Positions 4,493 through 38,425 of a DNA stretch of 64,000 nt are shown piece by piece. The DNA lies in contig CP102405.1 in the NCBI GenBank assembly GCA_024628785.1, positions 1,426,001 through 1,490,000 of the forward strand, given 5' to 3'. This DNA is from Fusobacteria bacterium ZRK30. Its GTDB lineage: Bacteria; Fusobacteriota; Fusobacteriia; Fusobacteriales; Fusobacteriaceae. Positions within the stretch are counted from its first letter, which is position 1, and the number at the start of each line of letters is the position of its first letter. The notes under the pieces are model-generated. The model was not told where the DNA came from and ran no database searches. It saw nothing but the letters and a program-made list of their open reading frames with translations. A program made the position numbers and the translations under genes.

Positions 4493-4522
4493 TTGAAAAA
4501 AACTAAGAATTAATGGTAAAAT
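4493..4522 (+). promoter_or_regulatory. Promoter for hpt operon
   Basis: TTGAAA, 18-base spacer, TAAAAT, with an extended -10 (TGG before TAAAAT). It lies 36 bases upstream of the hpt start. Confidence 0.6.
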
Positions 4523-4557
4523 ATGAGGTAAATTATTAACTTTAGGAGGAAATAAAA

Positions 4558-5121
4558 TTGAATAAAAAGCCTTGGGATAAAGGAATTGCAACAAAAATGC
4601 TTACAGAGGACCAAATCGCTGCAAGAGTGGCTGAGTTAGGAGCTCAAATCACAAAAGATTTTAAAGATAAAGAGGAAGATATAATCGTAGTGTGTTTATT
4701 AAAGGGATCGATTATATTTATGGCAGACCTTTGTAGAAAAATTGAATTACCACTAAAGATGGATTTTATGACTGTATCTAGTTATGGAAATGAATTTGTA
4801 TCAACAAGAGAAGTAAAGATCAAAAAAGATTTAGATGAAAATATCATGGGGAAACATGTAATCGTAGTAGAAGATATAATCGATTCAGGAAATACATTGA
4901 AAACTGTATTAAAGATGTTAGGACACAGAGGACCTAAGTCAGTATCATTATGTACACTTTTAAACAAGCCTTCTAGAAGGGAAGTTGAGATTGACGTACA
5001 ATATATTGGTTTTGAAATAGAGGATGAGTTCGTATTAGGTTATGGATTAGACTATATGCAGGAATATAGAAATATTCCTTACGTAGGTATCATGGGGAAT
5101 TTAGAAGAATTAGAAGACTAA
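4558..5121 (+). CDS. hpt: Hypoxanthine phosphoribosyltransferase (copy 1)
   Basis: A 187-residue type I phosphoribosyltransferase. The PRPP-binding loop is VIVVEDIIDSGNTL with the acidic pair preceding SGNT, and the conserved LLKGS and SSYG loops are present. It salvages hypoxanthine/guanine with PRPP to IMP/GMP. It starts at TTG 4558, supported by AGGAGG eight bases upstream; no ATG is suitably placed. It is followed 14 bases later by a paralogue of the same family. Confidence 0.9.
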   Translation: MNKKPWDKGIATKMLTEDQIAARVAELGAQITKDFKDKEEDIIVVCLLKGSIIFMADLCRKIELPLKMDFMTVSSYGNEFVSTREVKIKKDLDENIMGKHVIVVEDIIDSGNTLKTVLKMLGHRGPKSVSLCTLLNKPSRREVEIDVQYIGFEIEDEFVLGYGLDYMQEYRNIPYVGIMGNLEELED

Positions 5122-5135
5122 GGAGATAATAGGGA

Positions 5136-5669
5136 ATGAAATATTCAGTAGATGTAATGATCTCAAAAGAAGAGATCGCAGGTAAAGTAGCAGAATTAGG
5201 AGAAAGAATAAATAAAAAATATAAAGACAGTGAAGAATTAGTATTGATCGCTCTTTTACGTGGATCAGTAATATTTATGGCAGATATTGCCCGTGAATTA
5301 AAATTAGAGAATGTAAGATTGGACTTTATGACTGTATCTAGTTATGGAAATTCTATGACTTCTTCTAGAGATGTAAAGATCAAAAAAGATATTGAAGATT
5401 GTATCAAAGGTAAAGATGTTCTTATTGTAGAAGATCTAATAGATACAGGATTTACTTTGAGTAAAGTTGTTGAGATATTAAAGATCAGGGAACCAAAGTC
5501 TCTTAGTATTTGTACACTTTTAGACAAACCGGCTAGAAGAGAAGCAAATGTTGATGTGGAATTTTCAGGATTCCAAATTCCAGATGAATTTGTAGTAGGA
5601 TATGGAATCGATTATGCAGAAAAACATAGAGAACTGCCGTTTATCGGAAAAGTAACTATAGAAAAATAA
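5136..5669 (+). CDS. hpt: Hypoxanthine phosphoribosyltransferase (copy 2, tandem paralogue)
   Basis: 177 residues, the same architecture as the upstream gene: PRPP loop [19 protein letters not shown] and SSYG. Many blocks are shared ([28 protein letters not shown]). The pair is a tandem duplication that has diverged. Different base preference (hypoxanthine versus guanine or xanthine) is possible but cannot be decided here. AAGGAG precedes the ATG. Confidence 0.88.
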
Positions 5670-5691: not shown

Positions 5692-6486
5692 ATGGGATTT
5701 AAACATAAGAAAAAATATGGACAAAACTTTTTGACCAATGCAGGTCAGGTTTTAGACAGAATTATAGAAGTTTCAGATGTAAATTCTGAAGATGCTATAG
5801 TAGAGATAGGACCTGGTGAGGGAGCACTTACAGAGCTATTATTGGAGCATGGAAAAAAAGTTACATGTATGGAGATAGATACAGATCTAGAAAAAATACT
5901 AAGAAGAAAATTTGAAACCAACCCGAAGTTTACTTTACTTATGGGAGACGTTTTAGAGCAGAATTTTCAAGAAAAAATAGGAGAACCTATAAAGGTAGTA
6001 GCTAATATTCCTTACTATATCACTTCTCCAATTATTCATAAATTGATAGAAAATAGAAATATTATAAATCAAATTTATATAATGGTGCAAAAAGAAGTGG
6101 CTGAAAGAATATGTGCAAAATCAGGAAAAGAGAGAAGTGTTCTTACACTATCTGTTGAATACTTTGGTGATGCAGAATATCTATTTACTATTCCAAAGGA
6201 AGATTTTGATCCGGTACCTAAGATTGATTCGGCATTTATGTCAATTAAACTTCGTACTGATAATAAGTATGAAAAATTAGTCGATGAAGCTACATTTTTT
6301 AAATATGTAAAGGCAGCCTTTGCTAATAAGAGAAAAAATATACTGAATAACTTATCTAATTTAGGGTTCAGTAAAGCTGAATTAAAAGAAAAATTAGAGA
6401 CTATAGGTATAGAGGGAAATAGAAGAGCCGAAGCTATAAGCATCGATGAATATATGGAACTTATCAGAGTCTTAGAGGAAAAATAA
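5692..6486 (+). CDS. rsmA: 16S rRNA (adenine1518/1519-N6) dimethyltransferase
   Basis: 264 residues, the KsgA/Dim1 family. It starts with the family hallmark KKKYGQNFL and carries the SAM motif EIGPGEGALT and the catalytic NIPYY motif. It dimethylates two adjacent adenines near the 3' end of 16S rRNA during 30S maturation. The gene lies 22 bases after the second hpt, with AGCAGGTG as ribosome site, probably in one operon. Confidence 0.95.
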   Translation: MGFKHKKKYGQNFLTNAGQVLDRIIEVSDVNSEDAIVEIGPGEGALTELLLEHGKKVTCMEIDTDLEKILRRKFETNPKFTLLMGDVLEQNFQEKIGEPIKVVANIPYYITSPIIHKLIENRNIINQIYIMVQKEVAERICAKSGKERSVLTLSVEYFGDAEYLFTIPKEDFDPVPKIDSAFMSIKLRTDNKYEKLVDEATFFKYVKAAFANKRKNILNNLSNLGFSKAELKEKLETIGIEGNRRAEAISIDEYMELIRVLEEK

Positions 6487-6500
6487 TAATTAAAGGATTG

Positions 6501-6533
6501 AGAATGGAGATAAAAATCCATTCTGAATTTTTT
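6501..6533 (+). terminator. Hairpin terminator after rsmA
   Basis: AGAATGGA / TCCATTCT stem with an eight-base loop, followed by GAATTTTTTT. Confidence 0.6.
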
Positions 6534-6580
6534 ATTAAGGGGATAATAGATCGCCACAGGCGTAAAGGAGGTAAAAAATT

Positions 6581-6823
6581 ATGATGAGAAGTTACGAGTT
6601 TTTCATTCAAACAGAAAGAAAACACATCGATTTTATAAATAAAGTAATGGAAGCTTATGAAGGTCTGGGAATAGTCAGAACTTTAGATGCTAAATTAGGA
6701 ACAATAAAGATTATATCTACTGAATTTTATGCTGATGAGGTTAGAGTTGTAGTAGAAGACCTGGATGCAAACGGGGTATATGCCAAGATAACCTATGAAG
6801 GACCTTGGAAGGGTGTATTATAA
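6581..6823 (+). CDS. DUF4911 family protein
   Basis: 80 residues, resembling the small DUF4911 family of Fusobacteriota and Clostridia (RSYEFFIQT near the start; an ACT-like alternation of strands and helices). The molecular function is unknown. AAGGAGG lies nine bases before the first of two adjacent ATGs. It sits between rsmA and the thioesterase, in the same order as the translation genes that follow. Confidence 0.7.
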   Translation: MMRSYEFFIQTERKHIDFINKVMEAYEGLGIVRTLDAKLGTIKIISTEFYADEVRVVVEDLDANGVYAKITYEGPWKGVL

Positions 6824-6858
6824 AAAAAGTGTAAAATAAAGGTCAGAAGGAGGCAATA

Positions 6859-7266
6859 ATGGAAAAAAATTGTCATACGATAGATCACAGAGTCTACTAT
6901 AACGAAACTGACCAAATGGGAAGGGTATATCATTCGAACTACGTTATCTGGATGGAAAAAGGAAGAACTGAGTTTATCAGGACTAAGAAGATCTCCTACA
7001 AATCTCTGGAGGAAGATGGAATCTTTCTTCCTGTATCGGATATAGATATAAAATTTTTTAAAGCCATAGAATACGATATGGAATTAAAGATAAAAACTAT
7101 CCTGACGGAGATAAATAGAATTAAAGTTAAATTCAGATATGAATTTTATGATAGTAGGATGGAGACTCTTTTTGGAGTTGCAAATACCACAAATATCTTT
7201 ACAGACAGGGATGGAATACCTAAAAGAGTCAGTAAAGAACTAGTAGATAGGATAAAAAACAATTAA
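6859..7266 (+). CDS. Acyl-CoA thioesterase, YbgC/4-hydroxybenzoyl-CoA thioesterase hot-dog family
   Basis: 135 residues. The family signature is clear near the N-terminus: VYYNETDQMGRVYHSNY, with the catalytic aspartate in the TDxMG segment. Hot-dog thioesterases hydrolyse acyl-CoA or acyl-ACP. AGAAGGAGG precedes the ATG. Confidence 0.85.
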   Translation: MEKNCHTIDHRVYYNETDQMGRVYHSNYVIWMEKGRTEFIRTKKISYKSLEEDGIFLPVSDIDIKFFKAIEYDMELKIKTILTEINRIKVKFRYEFYDSRMETLFGVANTTNIFTDRDGIPKRVSKELVDRIKNN

Positions 7267-7347
7267 AAATTGATAGATATTGCACAGATAATTTAATTAA
7301 AAGATAAAAGTTATCAATTTGGCCAAAAGCCAGGGAGGAATATAAAG

Positions 7348-7587
7348 ATGGAAAAATTAGAAGCACTATTAAAATATATAGTTTCAGAAATGGTAAAAAC
7401 ACAAGATGCAATCGATATTACATATGAGGAAAAGAAAGACCTTATTGTTTTTAAAATAAGAGTAGCTGATGGTGAATTAGGAAAAGTAATAGGTAAAAAC
7501 GGTCTGACTGCAAATGCTATCAGAGGAGTAATGCAGGCAGCAGCAGTAAAAGATAAATTAAATGTAAATGTAGAATTTTTAGATTAA
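7348..7587 (+). CDS. khpA: KH-domain RNA-binding protein KhpA
   Basis: 79 residues, a single type II KH domain with the GxxG RNA-contact loop in VIGKNG. The size and its place directly before rimM-trmD are typical of KhpA, which acts with KhpB in RNA metabolism in many Gram-positive bacteria. GGGAGG lies before the ATG. Confidence 0.9.
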   Translation: MEKLEALLKYIVSEMVKTQDAIDITYEEKKDLIVFKIRVADGELGKVIGKNGLTANAIRGVMQAAAVKDKLNVNVEFLD

Positions 7588-27993: not shown

Positions 27994-28692
27994 ATGAGTG
28001 TAACTAAGGTGTCAGATAATAAATTAAAAGCCCTTGGAATATTTTTAAAAAAAACTAGAGAAAGAGTTAAATTAGGAACAAATCAATTAGCAGCTAAAAT
28101 TGGAATAAGTCCAAGTTATATAACTAAATTAGAAAAAGGTCATATAGCAACAGTACATCCATATCTACTACGTCGTGTAGCTGAAGGTTTAAGAATAGAC
28201 TATAAAGAATTATATAAAATAGTAGATTATTTAGACGAAGAAGAACCAATTGAAATGACCTCAAATGGAAGAAGAATTGAAACAATAAAAATTCCTATGT
28301 ATGGAACTGCTAGTGCAGGACCAGGGTACTATAATCTTCTAGATGAATTAGATGAACAATTTCAAATTCCTATTGAGGATTATAAAGAAGGAAGATTTAC
28401 AGTCAAAATAGAGGGTGATTCAATGACTGGTATCGGAGGGAAATCTATACCATGTGGATCAATTGCATTAGTAGATCCTATGATGTGTAGTAATATAGGA
28501 GAGTTATTGGGAAAGGTTTGTGTATTTACTTATAATGACTCTACTTATATCAAACAATTACAAATAGATGAGCAAGAGATAATACACCTAGTTTCATTTA
28601 ATCCAAATATCTCAGATATTATTATCCTTAATGAAAATGAATTAAAGTGTGAAGGAAGAGTAATTAAAACTTATTTTGAGCAGAAGTGGTAA
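27994..28692 (+). CDS. CI-like repressor with S24 self-cleavage domain
   Basis: The start is ATG 27994 (TAGGAG ten bases upstream; a GTG at 27985 is too close). 232 residues. An XRE-type HTH lies at about 11-70 (LGTNQLAAKIGISPSYITKLEKG). A LexA-like peptidase domain follows, with cleavage site Ala108-Gly109 (TASAGPG), Ser143 (EGDSM) and Lys187 (TYIKQL). It should hold the lysogenic state and be inactivated by RecA after DNA damage. Transcribed away from the early operon. Confidence 0.93.
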   Translation: MSVTKVSDNKLKALGIFLKKTRERVKLGTNQLAAKIGISPSYITKLEKGHIATVHPYLLRRVAEGLRIDYKELYKIVDYLDEEEPIEMTSNGRRIETIKIPMYGTASAGPGYYNLLDELDEQFQIPIEDYKEGRFTVKIEGDSMTGIGGKSIPCGSIALVDPMMCSNIGELLGKVCVFTYNDSTYIKQLQIDEQEIIHLVSFNPNISDIIILNENELKCEGRVIKTYFEQKW

Positions 28693-28702
28693 GGAGAAAA
28701 TT

Positions 28703-28891
28703 ATGAATAAAGTGTTTTGGATCTTTAGAATAATTTTGTGTTATTTTCTATATCAAAATATAGAGTTTTTCGGTTATTCAATTGAACTTATAATAACTAT
28801 GATAATTATATATTTTATGCCTAATATGACTTTTAAACTAATAAGTTCAATGAATGAAGTCGAGAGATATACTAAAAAAAGGGGAAAATAA
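28703..28891 (+). CDS. Small membrane protein downstream of repressor
   Basis: 62 residues with two hydrophobic helices and a basic tail (YTKKRGK). AAGGAG lies seven bases before ATG 28703. Probably co-transcribed with the repressor; function unknown. Confidence 0.55.
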   Translation: MNKVFWIFRIILCYFLYQNIEFFGYSIELIITMIIIYFMPNMTFKLISSMNEVERYTKKRGK

Positions 28892-29613: not shown

Positions 29614-29722
29614 ACTAAAGTATCATAGAGAGAGTTGTAGGTATAACAAAAATACTAAGACTATGAGTGTAGGAGAGGCTAGAGGGTTAGGATTAGAAGC
29701 TTGTAAGGTTTGTGGGGAATAA
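29612..29722 (+). pseudogene. Remnant of a YHxxxCRY-type cysteine-motif domain (first)
   Basis: In the frame after the GIY-YIG stop the DNA reads KYHRESCRYNKN...MSVGEARGLGLEACKVCGE then stop, without a start or ribosome site. It matches the C-terminal motif common in phage and nuclease proteins. A similar remnant lies at 31338-31466. Confidence 0.5.
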
Positions 29723-29735
29723 AAAAGGAGTGATA

Positions 29736-30359
29736 ATGGAAACAGTAATAATATTAGTATTTGGGGTATTAATAGGAAGTTTTTTGCCTTTTAACAATCA
29801 AAATAAAGAACATATTGAAGGAAAAGTACCGGGAAATAAAAAACAAATAATTATGATTGATGAACTAGTAAAACCAGAAGAAATATTAGATGAAAATGAT
29901 GAACCAGTAAAACCAGAAGAAATATTAGATGGAAATGATGAACCGGTAAAACCAGAAGAAATATTAGATGAAAATGATGAACCAGTAAAACCAGAAGAAA
30001 TATTAGATGGAAATGATGAACCGGTAAAACCAGAAGAAATATTAGATGAAAATGATGAACCAGTAAAACCAGAAGAAATATTAGATGAAAATGATGAACC
30101 AGTAAAACCAGAAGAAATATTAGATGAAAACAATGAACCAGCAAAACTAGAAGAAATATTAGAACAAAATGAAACTTTAATTGAGAATAAAGGGGGAGAA
30201 AATGTGCCAGCTGTAGAAAATTCTGCAATAAATAAAGCTCAAGAGTTACTAACAACTAAAGTTATTACCGTAGGAACAACGATTGCATTAGTAATAATAT
30301 TCTTATTAATAGTAATAGGATTGTTAAACTATCGAAAAGAAGAAAAAAAGGTTCTTTGA
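29736..30359 (+). CDS. Membrane protein with 13-residue acidic tandem repeats
   Basis: The start is ATG 29736 after AAGGAG. 207 residues. An N-terminal membrane/signal helix (VIILVFGVLIGSF) precedes seven full copies and one partial copy of KPEEILDENDEPV. A second membrane helix near the C-terminus (VGTTIALVIIFLLIVIGLL) is followed by a basic end. The repeat region is strongly acidic and may form a rod. The stop overlaps the next start (four bases), so the next gene is its likely partner. No known family. Confidence 0.65.
   Translation: METVIILVFGVLIGSFLPFNNQNKEHIEGKVPGNKKQIIMIDELVKPEEILDENDEPVKPEEILDGNDEPVKPEEILDENDEPVKPEEILDGNDEPVKPEEILDENDEPVKPEEILDENDEPVKPEEILDENNEPAKLEEILEQNETLIENKGGENVPAVENSAINKAQELLTTKVITVGTTIALVIIFLLIVIGLLNYRKEEKKVL
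29871..30173 (+). repeat. 39-bp coding minisatellite
   Basis: Seven units of 39 bases plus a partial eighth. Units 2 and 4 share GGA for GAA and the following CCG, showing a 78-base higher-order duplication. Length is likely to vary between strains. Confidence 0.9.
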
Positions 30360-30742
30360 AAAAAATAGAAGAATTTATTGAAGAGTTTGGAAATTTTTGG
30401 TGGAAGTATATAGCATGGATAGTGGGTGTTTCATTGACAGGACTTTTCTTACTTTCTTTTATATTAGATAAGGATGTTCAAGTTCAAAATATAAATAATT
30501 GGGTATCAATAATGGTAGGTATTACTGCATTTTTTGTTTCTGTTGGAGGAATTGCTTTAAGTTTTTATAACTTAGAAACTACGAGAGAAAGTGAAAAAGA
30601 AATAAAAGCTTTTATTGAAAAGTCATTAGAAAAAACAGAAAACAGTATAAAAGCAAGTGTCGAAAAGGAGAAAAAATATAGTATAGTAAAACAAGAAACT
30701 GGTAGCGAAATAATTGGTAACATACAAATAGATGAAAATTAA
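30356..30742 (+). CDS. Two-TM membrane protein
   Basis: 128 residues from TTG 30356, AAAGG upstream. Two membrane helices (WWKYIAWIVGVSLTGLFLLS and VSIMVGITAFFVSVGGIALS), then a charged coiled coil. It overlaps the repeat protein gene by four bases. Unknown family. Confidence 0.55.
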   Translation: MKKIEEFIEEFGNFWWKYIAWIVGVSLTGLFLLSFILDKDVQVQNINNWVSIMVGITAFFVSVGGIALSFYNLETTRESEKEIKAFIEKSLEKTENSIKASVEKEKKYSIVKQETGSEIIGNIQIDEN

Positions 30743-31209: not shown

Positions 31210-31337
31210 TTATCTAATTCAAATTACGTAATTCATTAACTCATCTAGAGCTAAATAATATTTGGTGCTAGATATATTTATACTTTAAAAAATATAAAAT
31301 ATACTCCTTTAACATAAGACTAAAGAATCTAGACTCT

Positions 31338-31466
31338 GTAGTATATGTGACTAAAAGCAGTAAGAAGTACCATAGAAAAGGATGTAGGTATCTGAAAAGT
31401 GTAGGAGGGAGTTATCCTCTGAAAGAAGCTGAAGCTTTGGGGTATGAGGCTTGTAGTAAGTATTAA
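31338..31466 (+). pseudogene. Remnant of a YHxxxCRY-type cysteine-motif domain (second)
   Basis: One frame reads VYVTKSSKKYHRKGCRYLKS...PLKEAEALGYEACSKY then stop, with no ATG or ribosome site upstream. It is the same domain type as 29612-29722. Apart from this, a terminator and a promoter, the 458 bases from 31210 to 31667 show nothing. Confidence 0.5.
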
Positions 31467-31518
31467 AAAATTGCAGTTAGTTCAGCACCAAGTGTTATGA
31501 TTTATGATATTAGAAAAG

Positions 31519-31546
31519 AAAAGATAGTGGAAACTATCTTTTTTTA
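31519..31546 (+). terminator. Terminator upstream of reverse transcriptase gene
   Basis: AAAAGATAGT-GGAA-ACTATCTTTT with further T. Confidence 0.8.
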
Positions 31547-31597
31547 TACAAAAAAATGAAAATAATACATTGGATTATAAAAATTAAGTTAAATTAA

Positions 31598-31626
31598 TTG
31601 TAAAAAGGCTAAAAAAAAGTTAAAAT
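31598..31626 (+). promoter_or_regulatory. Promoter of the reverse transcriptase gene
   Basis: TTGTAA, 17 bases, TAAAAT, 41 bases before the ATG. The short leader leaves no room for a retron-type RNA. Confidence 0.65.
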
Positions 31627-31667
31627 AGAGCGGATTAGCGATAAAAAAAATTAATTGGAGGAACAAA

Positions 31668-33221
31668 ATGTGTAGTGCTACTGATATAATAAAAGCAGAA
31701 TTTAAAGAAGATGGTTTTTTTTCAGAATATTTACCATCTAACTTTAATCTTTCAAATAGTCGAATCAATATTTTTAATATTAAACCAAGTAATAAAACAG
31801 ACTACATCGATCCTTATAAATATACCATGAGTAGGTTTTCTAAAGAAGAAAGTAGACGAAGAACGATACACTTACCTGAATTAGCTCCTTATGTATTAGT
31901 TTCTAACTATATTTGTGATGAAGATATTCTTTCTGAACTCATTGATTTTACAGAAACATATGGTGATAATTCATTTTCTAAACTTCTTTATTCGGACAAA
32001 ACTATTTATCGTCATGATAAAGATTACAGTAATTTAATAACTACAACTGATGAATCAGATTTAACATATCTACCAAATATTGAAAAAAAAATTAATAAAG
32101 CAAAAGGAGCAAAAGGAGTATTACATCTAGATATTTCTAATTGTTATGGTAGTATTTATACACATTTACTCCCTTCTATTCTACTTGGTTATGAAAAATC
32201 TTTTTTATGTTTCAGAAATAACGGAAAACCTAATTTAAGTATAACGCCTCAAGAGGCAAATGATTATTGTAAGTATAAAGAATTAGACTCTAAAGTAGGA
32301 TTACTTAATGGAAAACGTACTAATGGATTATTAACAGGAAGTTTAATTTCTTCTTTTCTAGTAGAATCATTTTTGACCCGTATAGATATAGAAATAGAAA
32401 GGTTAGGAATTAACTTCAGTAGATATGTTGATGACTATGAAATATATATATATGATGAAACAAATATAGATGCATTAACAGCACAACTTCGTGAAGTTTT
32501 AAGCAAATACCATCTTGATTTCAATAATGAAAAAGCAAAATTTCTAAAATTCCCATACTATGTAGTAGAAAATTTACAACAAATCTATTCAAAGTACACT
32601 AGGAGTAAAATGACTAATAGTGAACTTATGAAACTTTTTAATAAATACTTTGAATTAGAAAATTCTGGGATTAAAGGTGCAATTAGATTTCTAATCAAAA
32701 GTATCGATGATAAATTAGATTTAGATAATAAAGTTTTATATTCATCTTTTCTTTTAAATGTTTTAGTAAATGACAAAAGGTCTTTAACTAAAGTCTGTGA
32801 GTTGATAATAAGTGAAAATATAGAGGTAGATGAAAAATATTTTGAAATAATTATTAACTTATTACATCAAAATATTAAGAATAAAAATGATTTAGAAGTA
32901 ATTTGGTTAATTTATCTTTTAAAAAGTTTAAGAAAAGTTACATTAGGCAAGGATCTTTTAAGCAAAATTATTGAAAGTGAAAATGAATTAGCTATAATAA
33001 TGTTAATGGAAGAGTACGGTCAAGAAATTAATGATTATAATTTGAAAGAAGATATTATAAATTTAAATTGTTCTTGGATTTTATCAGCTCAATTATATCT
33101 TAAAGATTACATAACTAAGGAGGAATTTAGTTTGAAATCTGAAATTAAATTTAATCTTCCTTTTTATAGTCGGCTAAGAGCTAAAAAATTTACTTTTTAT
33201 AAGCCAATTGGAACTCAATAA
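31668..33221 (+). CDS. Abi-type reverse transcriptase (phage-defence RT)
   Basis: 517 residues. RT motifs: motif A LHLDISNCYGSIYTH (Asp155), motif B NGLLTGSLISSFL, motif C RYVDDYE (YVDD at 253-256) and motif D NEKAKFLKF. The SIYTH sequence after motif A and the long alpha-helical repeat C-terminus (about 300-490) are typical of the AbiK / AbiA / Abi-P2 group, not retrons or group II introns. Abi RTs make DNA without a template and cause abortive infection. AATTGGAGG precedes the ATG. It has its own promoter, which fits cargo expressed in the lysogen. Confidence 0.8.
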   Translation: MCSATDIIKAEFKEDGFFSEYLPSNFNLSNSRINIFNIKPSNKTDYIDPYKYTMSRFSKEESRRRTIHLPELAPYVLVSNYICDEDILSELIDFTETYGDNSFSKLLYSDKTIYRHDKDYSNLITTTDESDLTYLPNIEKKINKAKGAKGVLHLDISNCYGSIYTHLLPSILLGYEKSFLCFRNNGKPNLSITPQEANDYCKYKELDSKVGLLNGKRTNGLLTGSLISSFLVESFLTRIDIEIERLGINFSRYVDDYEIYIYDETNIDALTAQLREVLSKYHLDFNNEKAKFLKFPYYVVENLQQIYSKYTRSKMTNSELMKLFNKYFELENSGIKGAIRFLIKSIDDKLDLDNKVLYSSFLLNVLVNDKRSLTKVCELIISENIEVDEKYFEIIINLLHQNIKNKNDLEVIWLIYLLKSLRKVTLGKDLLSKIIESENELAIIMLMEEYGQEINDYNLKEDIINLNCSWILSAQLYLKDYITKEEFSLKSEIKFNLPFYSRLRAKKFTFYKPIGTQ

Positions 33222-33324
33222 TCATTTTGAATTATAATCTAGAAAAACACGAGATAAAGATTGATTATAGTGAAATATATAGATTCACAGATAAAGTTTT
33301 TTATAGGCAATTATATAGATTTAG

Positions 33325-33333
33325 TGATATAAT
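33325..33333 (+). promoter_or_regulatory. Extended -10 promoter for the two small genes after the RT
   Basis: TGATATAAT without a clear -35, about 85 bases before ATG 33421. Confidence 0.45.
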
Positions 33334-33420
33334 ATATACAAAGATTATTGTAGGAAATTATTTGAAATATTCGTAACTCTTTAGTATAGGTTTTTTTATT
33401 CCTTAAAAAAGGAGGTTACT

Positions 33421-33645
33421 ATGTCAAATAAAAATAAGAAGGAGAAAAGTATGCCAAATAAATTTTTAAGAGGGTTAAAAATTTTGGGTTATGGTAAAGC
33501 AACAGTTGAAGCTAACGAAACGGCAGAAATTACTTCTGAGGAAGCTGAAAAAATAGCCGAAAATAACCAAAAAAAAATAGAAAATTTTAAAAAAAATTTT
33601 TCTAAAGTAAAAAAAGATAGTAAAAATTTAAATATAAAGTGGTGA
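33421..33645 (+). CDS. Small lysine-rich hypothetical protein
   Basis: 74 residues, highly basic, mostly helical, with a central acidic stretch (ANETAEITSEEAEKIAE). AAAGGAGG precedes ATG 33421; a second ATG at codon 11 after AGGAG is also possible. It lies between the RT and a one-TM protein gene, four bases upstream of the latter. Confidence 0.6.
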   Translation: MSNKNKKEKSMPNKFLRGLKILGYGKATVEANETAEITSEEAEKIAENNQKKIENFKKNFSKVKKDSKNLNIKW

Positions 33646-33649
33646 AACT

Positions 33650-34105
33650 ATGCAAATAATATTATCAAATGATTATACAGCTATAAAAGAAGGTCTACTT
33701 GCGATTGCTTCACCTAACTGGGCAACTAAAGTTTTAATAGGTTTAACTATTATATTTTGGTTGTTAGAAAGGCACTCTGAACGTTCATACAAAAATTCTA
33801 TTAAAAAAGATGAAAGAGCTAGAAATACTTCAATTAATTACGAAATAGATCGAAGTATTTTAGATTGTATGTATGAATTGATAGATCCAGATCCAGATCC
33901 AGAGATTATAGTTAATGCAGTAGCTTTAAAAAAACAAATCGGCAATTATGTACATTTAATTAATAATCACTCTAGTATTTATAAAAATTTAAACATTCTA
34001 AATTTTTTACATAAGTTTAAAGTAGAATTAGAAAACCAAAATAATGACGCACTATTTGATTTGGCTTTTCTAATCGTTGATATTTTAGAGTCTAAGGAAA
34101 ATTAA
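33650..34105 (+). CDS. Single-TM hypothetical protein
   Basis: 151 residues. One membrane helix (WATKVLIGLTIIFWLLE), then a charged cytoplasmic helical domain with DPDPDPE. Not recognised. It follows the 74-residue gene almost directly and is closed by a terminator. Confidence 0.6.
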   Translation: MQIILSNDYTAIKEGLLAIASPNWATKVLIGLTIIFWLLERHSERSYKNSIKKDERARNTSINYEIDRSILDCMYELIDPDPDPEIIVNAVALKKQIGNYVHLINNHSSIYKNLNILNFLHKFKVELENQNNDALFDLAFLIVDILESKEN

Positions 34106-34127
34106 ATCTAAAACTAAAAAATATGGG

Positions 34128-34157
34128 AGAACTCATAAATTAATGAGTTCTTTTTTT
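34128..34157 (+). terminator. Terminator before the IetAS pair
   Basis: AGAACTCAT / ATGAGTTCT stem followed by seven T. Confidence 0.85.
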
Positions 34158-34203
34158 ATTACTTTATCATTTTTTCAATTTAATGATTGATGATAAAAAA
34201 CTT

Positions 34204-34232: not shown

Positions 34233-34267
34233 AGATTATCAAAAATAAATAACGAAAGGAAATGATA

Positions 34268-35359
34268 ATGAAAATAAAAAAAATTATATTGGCTCTGATT
34301 AGAGCAGGGTTTGAAAAGGATATTAAAGCGATAGAATCTCTGTCATTATCTTTACTGAGACTTAATAAAAAGGAAGATCCGTTATTAGCTGAAGAAATAG
34401 CGTCAATATTAGCTCAAAAAAAAGTTGGAGCTTCAAGTTATAGAAGCATAGGATTCAATTCAAGTCCAGTAGATGAAGGTAGTCAAACTGCACTAGTCCA
34501 AATAAGAGAACCTATTAGTATAATAAAACCTGTCTTCAATGAAAATATTGAAGAAGAATTTCAAAATTTTATTAAAGAGAGAAAAAAGATTTCTGAATTA
34601 TTAAAGTATGGAATTAAACCTTCTAATAGTATCATCCTTTATGGAGAGCCCGGAGTAGGAAAAACATATTCAGCAAAATGGTTATCTTATAAACTAGACA
34701 TGCCTTTAATAACGTTAGATCTTTCAGCAACTATATCTAGTTATTTAGGAAAAACAGGGCAAAATATTAAACAAGTTCTTGAATATGCGAAATCATTTAA
34801 CTCGATTTTGTTTTTAGATGAATTTGATGCTATTGCTAAAAAAAGAGATGATCAAAGTGATATTGGTGAGCTTAAGAGAATAGTAAATATATTACTTAAG
34901 GAACTAGAAGAATGGCCGGCAGATAATATTGTTATAGCGGCTACTAATCACCCAGAAATATTAGATAAGGCTATCTGGAGAAGATTTGATAAACATCTTG
35001 AATTAAAAAATCTAGATAAAAAATTAACTGTAGATATAATCAAAAAAGAACTAGAATTGATTAAAAATATAAATAAAGAAGATTTAGAAATGATTTCTTA
35101 TTTTGTTAAAAATCAAAGTCCCGCTAATATAGTTAAATTATGCGATTCTATAAAAAGACGATATATTTTGTCAGAAGAAAAAGATAACTTTAGAAAACAC
35201 ATTTATACGGAGCTTAAAAGAAATAATTATAACGGATTAAAAGATAAAGAAATTTGTCATTATTTAAAAAAAATAATACCTAATATTACAGTTAAAGAAA
35301 TTGTTAAAATAACAGGAATTTCTCAAGCAACTATATACAGATATTTAAGAGAAGATTAA
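34268..35359 (+). CDS. ietA: AAA+ ATPase, IetA-like
   Basis: The second ATG (34268) is preferred: AAAGGA lies seven bases before it but only one before the first. 363 residues. Walker A GEPGVGKT at 126-133, Walker B ILFLDEFDA (Asp184, Glu185), sensor ATNHPE, and arginine finger region WRRFD. The C-terminus ends in a helix-turn-helix (IVKITGISQATIYRYL). The AAA ATPase plus subtilisin-like protease pair matches IetAS, first described as a plasmid stability toxin-antitoxin system and later as an anti-phage system. Confidence 0.82.
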   Translation: MKIKKIILALIRAGFEKDIKAIESLSLSLLRLNKKEDPLLAEEIASILAQKKVGASSYRSIGFNSSPVDEGSQTALVQIREPISIIKPVFNENIEEEFQNFIKERKKISELLKYGIKPSNSIILYGEPGVGKTYSAKWLSYKLDMPLITLDLSATISSYLGKTGQNIKQVLEYAKSFNSILFLDEFDAIAKKRDDQSDIGELKRIVNILLKELEEWPADNIVIAATNHPEILDKAIWRRFDKHLELKNLDKKLTVDIIKKELELIKNINKEDLEMISYFVKNQSPANIVKLCDSIKRRYILSEEKDNFRKHIYTELKRNNYNGLKDKEICHYLKKIIPNITVKEIVKITGISQATIYRYLRED

Positions 35360-35379
35360 AAAATTAAGGGGGAGAAAAA

Positions 35380-37596
35380 ATGAAAAAACTACCTATTTTA
35401 TCAAAAGGTGAAAAATTAGTTGAACCTATAACTAAAAAATTTGCACCAAATAATGAGACTTTTAATTTAACTGTAGAAGAAGCTAAATTAGAAAGAACTC
35501 GAGAAATAGAAAAAATAATTTCTGAAATTGAATGTAATAGTGAAAAATATGATAAAGAAATAATTGTAAGTGTAAGAATGGGTAAGCATATAGCTAAGAG
35601 CTATAAACCTACTAGTTTTTTGCCAAAAACTTTAGGAAAGATAATTGGAGGAAGAAGGTATACTTCTGAAATAGAAGGAGTGTCAAAACTTTATTTTTTT
35701 AGAACAACTACCGAGAAATTAAATAACTTAAAAAAAACAGTTAACACTATAACAGTTCCTAGTCAAGCTTGGGAAAAAGACATAAAAAGAATAGAAAAAA
35801 TAGACTTTTTAAGCAACAAAGAAAAAATAGATGGATTTGAGAAAAATTGGAAAATTGGAACAGTTGAAATTGTAATACATCCTACTGAAACAGCAAAAAC
35901 AGACGTATTAAAGAAAATTAAAAGAATATTAGAAGGGAAAAAATATAAAATAAAAGAATATAAAAATGGACCAATCTTCATATCAACTCAAATAAATAAG
36001 ACTTTATTAAATAAAATATTAGATTATAACTTTCTAAGAACCATTCATCCAATTGGAGATGTAGAAATCCCAACCTCTATTGAAGTAAAAGAAAAAAAGT
36101 CGATTTTAAGAAATTTTCCACTTTATAAACCGTCTGTTTTAGTAGGTGTATTTGACGGAGGAGTAAAAGAGGATAATCCTTTATTCAAGGGGTTAGTAAA
36201 AAATTATGATTGTGTTTCAACAATTGAAGACAGTGGTAGTCTTGAACATGGAACTGGAGTTTGTGGAGCAATTCTATATGGAAATTTAGACACTACTAAT
36301 AAAAATATCATAGATGTTTCACCTAAAATAGGAGTAGAAAGCTTTAGAGTTTTTCCACCACTAGATATCAATGATAATGATTTGTATGAAGTAGTCGATA
36401 CAATTGAAGAAACAGTAGAAAATAGAAAGGACATAAAAGTTTACAATCTTTCTTTAGGGCCCTGTGGCCCAATTTTACAAGATGATATAAGTAGGTTTAC
36501 ATATGCACTAGATACTCTATCTTATGAGAAAGATCTTATATTTTGTACAGCTGTAGGTAATGATGGAGAAGAAACTTTTAATAGAATTCAAAGTCCTTCA
36601 GACATGGTAAATGGTTTAGGAATTGGAGCATATAGCTATAATGATCAGGGAGTAAAAGTAAGAGCTCCTTATAGTTGTATTGGAGAAGGGAGAGAAGGCG
36701 CTAAGGTAAAACCTGATCTATTAGCTTTTGGTGGTTGTGAAAATAACCCTTTTGAATTAATTTCTACAGATGGAACAGACATAAATTTTAGTGTAGGAAC
36801 AAGCTTTGCTGCACCTATAGTTGCAGGGAAAATAGGTCGAATGATGGCTGAATCTCAAGAAATATCTCCACAGTTAGCAAAGTCGTTACTAATTTTGAAT
36901 TCTGATAACAATGGCAACATAAAACCTACTTTAGAAACTGGGTACGGCTTTTTAAATAAAACAGAAGATGATATTTTAAATTGTTCTAATAACAATGAAG
37001 TAATAATCGTTTATAATGGAGAAATATCTCCAGGTAGTCAAGCAAAATTAAAAATACCATATCCTGAAACAAATCATAAAGGAAAAGTAAAAATAACTTG
37101 GTCATTAAGTTTAGCAACCCCTGTAGATGGTTTAGATACTGATGGATACACTAAATGTTGTATCGTTGATACTTTTTATCCACATAGTGAAAAATTTAAA
37201 TTTTCAAAAAATAAAAAAAATAGAATTGTAAATGTTAACAAAGATAGAGAAAAGGTTGAGGAATTAATATCACAAGGTTTTAAACAAAGTGCTCTTCCTG
37301 ATACAGAATCAGGAAACCTTTATAAATGTGAAAGAGAATTGAGAAAACATATGAAGTGGGATACGACAGTTAAAAGGCACGTATCAAAACTTAACAAATC
37401 ATTAAAAGATCCTTTTCTTGTATTACACGGAATGGAACGAGAAGCATCAGAAAGTGATAAAATTAAATACGCATTATCTGTAAAAGTTGAATTTATTAAA
37501 TATGCAGGTAATCTATATAGTGAAATTAGAAATCAATATAAAATACTCTCACCTCTACAACTAAGAACACAACTTCAAACTCAAATAGAAGTTTAA
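35380..37596 (+). CDS. ietS: Subtilisin-like (S8) serine protease, IetS-like
   Basis: 738 residues. A catalytic triad of the S8 type: Asp259 (GVFDGGV), His290 (LEHGTGVCG) and Ser475 (GTSFAAP), with oxyanion Asn394 (AVGNDGEE). A 230-residue N-terminal region and a 230-residue C-terminal region flank it. There is no signal peptide, so it acts inside the cell, as expected for a protease held in check by the ATPase encoded 20 bases upstream. GGGGGAG precedes the ATG. Confidence 0.85.
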   Translation: MKKLPILSKGEKLVEPITKKFAPNNETFNLTVEEAKLERTREIEKIISEIECNSEKYDKEIIVSVRMGKHIAKSYKPTSFLPKTLGKIIGGRRYTSEIEGVSKLYFFRTTTEKLNNLKKTVNTITVPSQAWEKDIKRIEKIDFLSNKEKIDGFEKNWKIGTVEIVIHPTETAKTDVLKKIKRILEGKKYKIKEYKNGPIFISTQINKTLLNKILDYNFLRTIHPIGDVEIPTSIEVKEKKSILRNFPLYKPSVLVGVFDGGVKEDNPLFKGLVKNYDCVSTIEDSGSLEHGTGVCGAILYGNLDTTNKNIIDVSPKIGVESFRVFPPLDINDNDLYEVVDTIEETVENRKDIKVYNLSLGPCGPILQDDISRFTYALDTLSYEKDLIFCTAVGNDGEETFNRIQSPSDMVNGLGIGAYSYNDQGVKVRAPYSCIGEGREGAKVKPDLLAFGGCENNPFELISTDGTDINFSVGTSFAAPIVAGKIGRMMAESQEISPQLAKSLLILNSDNNGNIKPTLETGYGFLNKTEDDILNCSNNNEVIIVYNGEISPGSQAKLKIPYPETNHKGKVKITWSLSLATPVDGLDTDGYTKCCIVDTFYPHSEKFKFSKNKKNRIVNVNKDREKVEELISQGFKQSALPDTESGNLYKCERELRKHMKWDTTVKRHVSKLNKSLKDPFLVLHGMEREASESDKIKYALSVKVEFIKYAGNLYSEIRNQYKILSPLQLRTQLQTQIEV

Positions 37597-38093: not shown

Positions 38094-38176
38094 TTTTATA
38101 GGGATAATATTCTATCAGATTTGGGAATATTTACAAATTAAGTCGGTGGGGACTTGATACCCAATAGGGGGTGCTT

Positions 38177-38425
38177 ATGAACTGGAAAGATCAAAGAAAG
38201 CTAAGACAAACTCAAATGAAAGCCCTGGAAGATGAAAGAAAGGATCTTGCCAAAATAGGATGGCTGGCTATGAATAAAACAGAAAGAGAGCAGCTAAGAA
38301 AACTAATAAATTTTAATTGGGATAAAATGCCAGACTATGCCAAAGCTAAGATCTCAAAAGATGATTATATTAAATTTGAAACTCAGGAACAGTGTGCAAA
38401 ATTTGCTGAGAAATTAAAAAAATAA
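38177..38425 (+). CDS. Small phage protein
   Basis: The start ATG 38177 has AGGGGG five bases upstream (a GTG at 38171 overlaps it). 82 residues, charged, helical (MNWKDQRKLRQTQMKALEDE). Not recognised. It lies alone before two hairpins. Confidence 0.6.
   Translation: MNWKDQRKLRQTQMKALEDERKDLAKIGWLAMNKTEREQLRKLINFNWDKMPDYAKAKISKDDYIKFETQEQCAKFAEKLKK

Follow-up and report, generated by a model that had tools for sequence, protein, structure and literature searches.

A prophage-borne UG31 reverse transcriptase, probably a single-gene defence enzyme, next to the antiphage pair IetAS

We identified an intact reverse transcriptase (RT) of group UG31 in the variable cargo of a prophage in Fusobacteria bacterium ZRK30, and we consider it probable that this enzyme is a single-gene class 1 UG/Abi defence RT that synthesizes DNA without a template, in the manner of DRT4. 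The window analysed here, a stretch of 64,000 nucleotides of contig CP102405.1, had been described in an earlier note as carrying an Abi-type RT with two small companion genes as prophage cargo. Profile and predicted fold place the RT in class 1 of the UG RTs, and its locus is a variable one within the prophage, in agreement with that description. The proposed companionship of the two small genes fared worse, and the antiphage pair IetAS, which stands right after the RT stretch, had been missed. The features on which the argument relies are as follows:

31520..31545, + strand: terminator-like hairpin closing the unit upstream of the RT (read in the sequence)
31598..31626, + strand: RT promoter, TTGTAA-17-TAAAAT (scan 9/12; within a block that recurs in the genus)
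31668..33221, + strand: UG31 reverse transcriptase, 517 aa, intact (PADLOC, Pfam, relatives, predicted fold)
33421..33645, + strand: ORF74, orphan protein of 74 aa, basic (pI 9.8), preceded by a strong ribosome-binding site (coding score)
33650..34105, + strand: ORF151, 151-aa orphan protein, mostly helical (coding score)
34125..34160, + strand: intrinsic terminator after ORF151 (12-pair stem, then T run)
34262..35359, + strand: IetA, AAA ATPase of the IetAS antiphage system (PADLOC IetA E 1.9e-91; phrog_3757 E 6e-103)
35380..37596, + strand: IetS, subtilisin-like protease of IetAS (PADLOC IetS E 3.5e-56; Pfam Peptidase_S8 E 5.5e-27)

All three open reading frames of the earlier note are present, and all are coding by codon usage, with scores of 0.28-0.32 per codon; shuffled sequences score -0.5 to -0.6 per codon, and every other frame also falls below the three called ORFs. 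The RT motifs read from the sequence were located at residues 162-166 (SIYTH) and 253-256 (YVDD), and the protein matches Pfam RVT_1. Its catalytic residues, Asp155, Asp255 and Asp256, are invariant in seven sequences. Among the tyrosines that are invariant in the close UG31 clade are Tyr21, which lies in the loop that follows helix 1, and Tyr500, close to the C-terminus. Both UG30 relatives compared (L018 and L043) have a histidine at the position of Tyr21.

The assignment to a class 1 UG/Abi RT of group UG31 is supported by sequence profiles, relatives and a structure model. The top profile is RT_UG31 (PADLOC DRT family PDLC03770), with 391 bits and E 2.3e-117 over residues 11-513; lower PADLOC scores were obtained for UG30 (217 bits), Drt6 (176), Drt4 (140) and AbiK (94). 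A scan of species genomes yielded six close relatives with 39-47% identity across the whole protein, hosted by Clostridium viride, Clostridium rhizosphaerae and four uncultured Clostridia/Bacillota, and a search of 391 genomes of the class to which C. viride belongs added a seventh (42% identity over 494 aligned positions). Since close members occur in only two of these 391 genomes, the group is rare. The earlier note had proposed placing the RT in a tree; in our quick tree, the window RT and the six close relatives form one clade (SH-aLRT 99), apart from UG30, AbiK, Abi-P2, Drt3b, Drt8 and other RTs. Two divergent proteins with UG31 as their best score, L005 from the window's own family and L045 from Proteocatella, lie outside this close clade, although a single clade was not rejected (p-AU 0.47). 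The tree has no row for DRT4 or DRT6, and the closeness to these two therefore rests on profiles and fold. By these measures, the nearest groups to the window RT are UG31, UG30, DRT6 and DRT4, rather than AbiK or Abi-P2 themselves.

Scanning viral contigs with the UG31 alignment gave no case of UG31 carried by a phage, phage records contained no relative of the RT, and plasmids gave only distant ones with 25-27% identity. Two arrangements were seen among the relatives. In one uncultured Clostridia genome (L039), a UG13b RT (4512-5588) stands directly upstream of the UG31 RT (5980-7479), so that two RT systems are stacked. Separately, guaA, encoding GMP synthase, adjoins both divergent UG31 genes, L005 and L045, in two phyla, and this position looks like a shared island site.

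The predicted fold points in the same direction as the profiles. An AlphaFold2 monomer model built from seven UG31 sequences (mean pLDDT 79.7, pTM 0.82) comprises an RT core followed by an all-helical part at approximately residues 299-505. Compared with solved UG15/DRT4, the model gives Z 28.7 (rmsd 4.0, 465 residues) and Z 28.4 (rmsd 3.5, 454 residues); DRT6 follows with Z 27.3, AbiK with 23.3 and Abi-P2 with 18.8, and the alignments to DRT4, DRT6 and AbiK are nearly full-length. The next RT in the ranking is DRT2, with Z 12.6 and an alignment restricted to residues 6-340, and no retron or group II RT exceeds 12. The helical C-terminus had been likened to that of AbiK/Abi-P2. The helical domain is there in the model and the class was right, but within that class the predicted fold is nearer to DRT4 and DRT6. 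By NCBIfam score, the RT misses the Drt4 cut-off (130 bits against a curated 450); thus, while it most likely works like DRT4 by analogy of fold, it falls short of assignment to DRT4 itself.

Grouping with retrons or group II introns had been named beforehand as the outcome that would contradict an Abi-type RT, and we rejected both identities, as the scores lie far under the cut-offs. The retron St85 model gives 24 bits against a cut-off of 235, and the leader of about 35 nt and the UG31 family also speak against a retron; for a group II intron RT the score is 39 bits against a cut-off of 300, and the window has no Rfam match. A related possibility is that, like class 2 DRTs or retrons, the RT copies a template RNA encoded in cis. 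The RT gene is followed by some 200 nt of non-coding DNA, and some DRTs, such as DRT3, have a downstream RNA (PMC13174585), which would fit such an arrangement. However, the leader is only about 35 nt long, in line with the earlier view that it is too short for a retron RNA, and is unstructured, with no structure beyond that of shuffled sequences, and the gap behind the RT folds no better than its shuffles (z +1.2). The Rfam search gave no match here either, and no conserved 400-nt flanks were found among the UG31 relatives, even for a pair with 82% identical coding DNA; fold and family both indicate class 1. By computation, a cis-encoded template RNA is thus not indicated, and we give this explanation very little chance compared with an RT that needs no such partner.

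The RT gene has a credible promoter of its own, as had been claimed, although the case for it does not come from the consensus match: as a bare match, 9/12 is not above chance or shuffles. The promoter belongs to a block of approximately 110 bp (31516-31627) that also contains the upstream hairpin and is found in at least 10 places in genomes of the same genus, with E below 1e-10. Copies of this block, L119-L132 among the loci, precede unrelated genes, and the similarity stops just past the -10 box; it is this recurrence, with its end just after the -10, that makes the promoter credible. The hairpin at 31520-31545 has a perfect 9-bp stem (AAAGATAGT/ACTATCTTT), a GGAA loop and a T run behind it, and is too A+T-rich for the threshold of the terminator scan; many of the other copies of the block in the genus have an equivalent hairpin. 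In the sister prophage L111, the same block over 300 bp (87% identical, ending at 31629) stands before a Thoeris unit. The block may act as a promoter typical of the genus, or as an anchor for the recombination of cargo.

At the other end of the stretch, the terminator scan returned three terminator-like sites where 0.5 were expected, and the site after ORF151 (34125-34154 in the scan) is clear. The earlier note had placed all three genes under this one terminator. The terminator stands, but sharing it does not show one operon, because a gap of 199 nt separates the RT from ORF74 and contains a possible extended -10 promoter at 33304-33333, which does not exceed chance either. ORF74 is basic, as described. 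ORF151 is a real ORF, but its single membrane segment, near the N-terminus, is only borderline (best 19-residue hydropathy 1.39), and its structure model is unusable (pLDDT 42). Family libraries gave no name for either protein. Searches of viral contigs, phage records and 98 genomes of the phylum gave no credible homologue of either protein, and for ORF151 the same holds in plasmids. Weak ORF74 matches (E 0.002-0.1, approximately 20 bits or less), mostly within larger proteins, were discounted; such matches are expected because ORF74 is rich in lysine and glutamate. Matches of ORF151 at E 0.01-0.1 were discounted in the same way.

It had been suggested that the pair might form an accessory or effector module of the RT, and the survey proposed at the time speaks against this suggestion. 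Neither gene occurs beside any of the seven close UG31 relatives, whose downstream flanks span at least 5 kb each (some upstream flanks are shorter), nor at four distant loci (UG31 L005 and L045, UG30 L018 and L043; flanks at L005 and L043 are shorter). Across the clade, the RT has no recurring neighbour family, and guaA at L005 and L045 is the sole shared neighbour that we found. The survey behind our rejection of the companion module covered viral contigs, phage records, plasmids (for the RT and ORF151) and the 98 genomes as well as the seven close relatives and the five sister prophages. Occurrence of the companions elsewhere without the RT had been proposed as counter-evidence; they were found nowhere else. 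Adjacency is what ties them to the RT, because they are absent beside its relatives and have no credible homologues in these collections, and their membership in an RT system is not supported.

These observations weigh on how the three genes should be read together. If the RT, ORF74 and ORF151 formed one operon and one three-gene system, the basic protein might regulate the RT or bind its DNA product, and the membrane protein might be the effector. Adjacency on the same strand, the terminator behind all three genes, the strongly basic ORF74 (pI 9.8) and the possible membrane segment of ORF151 would agree with this, but the absence of the companions from the seven close relatives and from the divergent UG31 and UG30 loci, the lack of homologues in any search, the 199-nt gap and the single-gene precedent of DRT4, as papers citing the DRT4 study describe it, make it very unlikely. 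Slightly less likely still is the bolder version, in which the UG31 RT of this lineage gained two new partners and became a three-gene class 1 system, with a membrane-anchored effector and a small basic protein that either regulates the enzyme or binds its untemplated DNA product. We think it quite likely instead that the RT is a single-gene system and that ORF74-ORF151 are either the phage's own genes, for lysogeny or host adaptation, or a small independent defence or toxin-antitoxin pair. The tight spacing (ORF151 starts 4 nt past the ORF74 stop), the strong ribosome-binding site before ORF74 and other genes for small putative membrane proteins in the same cargo stretch (for example 28676-28891, 29712-30359 and 30356-30742) favour such a pair, although no homologue or usable fold names a function for it. 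This explanation concerns the pair only and is compatible with the single-gene explanation of the RT.

The genomic setting supports a defence role by association. IetAS (34262-37596) is a known antiphage pair and a separate system right downstream of the RT, ORF74 and ORF151. The Asp, His and Ser motifs of IetS can be read in the sequence (VFDGGV, HGTGV and GTSFAAP), and both proteins score below the stricter NCBIfam cut-offs. The variable cargo locus is bounded on one side by a phage repressor (27985-28692) and on the other by a conserved 84-aa gene (38171-38425). Through 92-96% identical terminases, we found five sister prophages (L109-L113), one of them in the same genome and the other four spread over two genomes of the genus; both border genes have homologues in all five, and the genes between them differ. 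The prophage in the same genome (L109, G000:C1:668139-669923; terminase 92% identical) has other cargo at the same locus. The remaining four carry type I restriction-modification (L110), Thoeris ThsA/ThsB with a TIR-TM protein and a PDC-S20 protein (L111), a DNA methyltransferase (L112) and an AAA ATPase related to several defence ATPases (L113), so that known defence systems (type I restriction-modification and Thoeris) occur in the cargo of at least two sister prophages. The exchange of defence cargo at this position among sister prophages supports the cargo interpretation and, together with IetAS as a direct neighbour, speaks by association for a defence role of the RT. On homology and context, the RT probably functions in defence.

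The cargo stretch contains further small genes. Remnants of a small gene whose product ends in a Cys/His-rich tail (KYHRKGCRY...LEAC/YEAC) lie between cargo genes at 29618-29712 and 31322-31480; fuller copies occur in L111 and L113, and the one in L111 (8176-8814) stands behind a nuclease-like part. The protein encoded at 29712-30359 has many tandem copies of a EPVKPEEILDEND repeat and a C-terminal membrane segment.

How the RT might act can be proposed from its characterized relatives. Class 1 RTs with this helical domain carry out untemplated DNA synthesis (PMC13174585). AbiK forms hexamers, and its priming residue is Tyr44, within a long loop formed by residues 21-57 (PMC9508834). Two papers that cite the DRT4 study describe DRT4 as a single-gene, tyrosine-primed, template-independent polymerase of random DNA; the phage protein ORF55 protects its product and also activates DRT6 (PMC13213688, PMC13314766). 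The predicted fold and the intact aspartates make action like that of DRT4 the most likely one for the window RT. By this analogy, we infer that the UG31 RT would assemble into a hexamer through its helical domain, as DRT4, DRT6 and AbiK do, and would make DNA without a nucleic-acid template, starting on one of its own tyrosines. Tyr21 and Tyr500 are the candidates; Tyr21 is only a candidate because two UG30 proteins have a histidine there. Upon infection by another phage, a single-stranded product may accumulate that is toxic or ties up phage proteins, and the infected cell would fail before phage release. Hexamer, protein priming, untemplated synthesis, trigger and defence are all projected from these relatives. 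ORF74 and ORF151 would be separate orphan cargo genes between the RT and IetAS.

The kind of RT is already known, and the value of this one lies mainly in its group: UG31 is named, and we found no published test of any member in the open-access literature. The copy described here is intact and compact, resembles DRT4 in predicted fold, and is flanked by a promoter and a terminator, with a known defence pair next to it. It thus lends itself well to asking whether class 1 RTs in general synthesize DNA without a template. In the prophage locus, in turn, one phage family can be seen to exchange its defence cargo while the position stays fixed.

Among known systems, Drt3b (UG8) is a class 1 RT whose profile matches the window RT over the RT core, but it works with a second RT and an RNA, neither of which is seen at the window locus, and it is primed by a C-terminal tyrosine (PMC13174585). 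Abi-P2 is also a class 1 RT, is often prophage cargo and shares the predicted fold (Z 18.8), yet it is 16% identical and falls in a separate clade (SH-aLRT 99). AbiK has the same RT and helical domain, a loop tyrosine after the first helix and a similar predicted fold (Z 23.3), whereas its identity is approximately 20% and its profile reaches only 94 bits. RT_UG30 gives the second-best profile (217 bits), its members L018 and L043 are 28% and 26% identical, and these two likewise lack the companions; UG30 differs in forming a separate clade and in the histidine in place of Tyr21. DRT6 has the predicted fold in common (Z 27.3), with a profile match (176 bits) weaker than that of UG31 and 19% identity. 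DRT4 (UG15), a single-gene class 1 system as papers citing the DRT4 study present it, is like the window RT in predicted fold over nearly the whole length and unlike it in sequence (approximately 20% identity, profile 140 bits). RT_UG31 itself shares the same full-length profile and the single-gene state, with relatives at 39-47% identity in Clostridia/Bacillota; in the RT we saw no difference from this group, and what sets the window copy apart is its place in a prophage of another phylum, with two orphan genes behind it.
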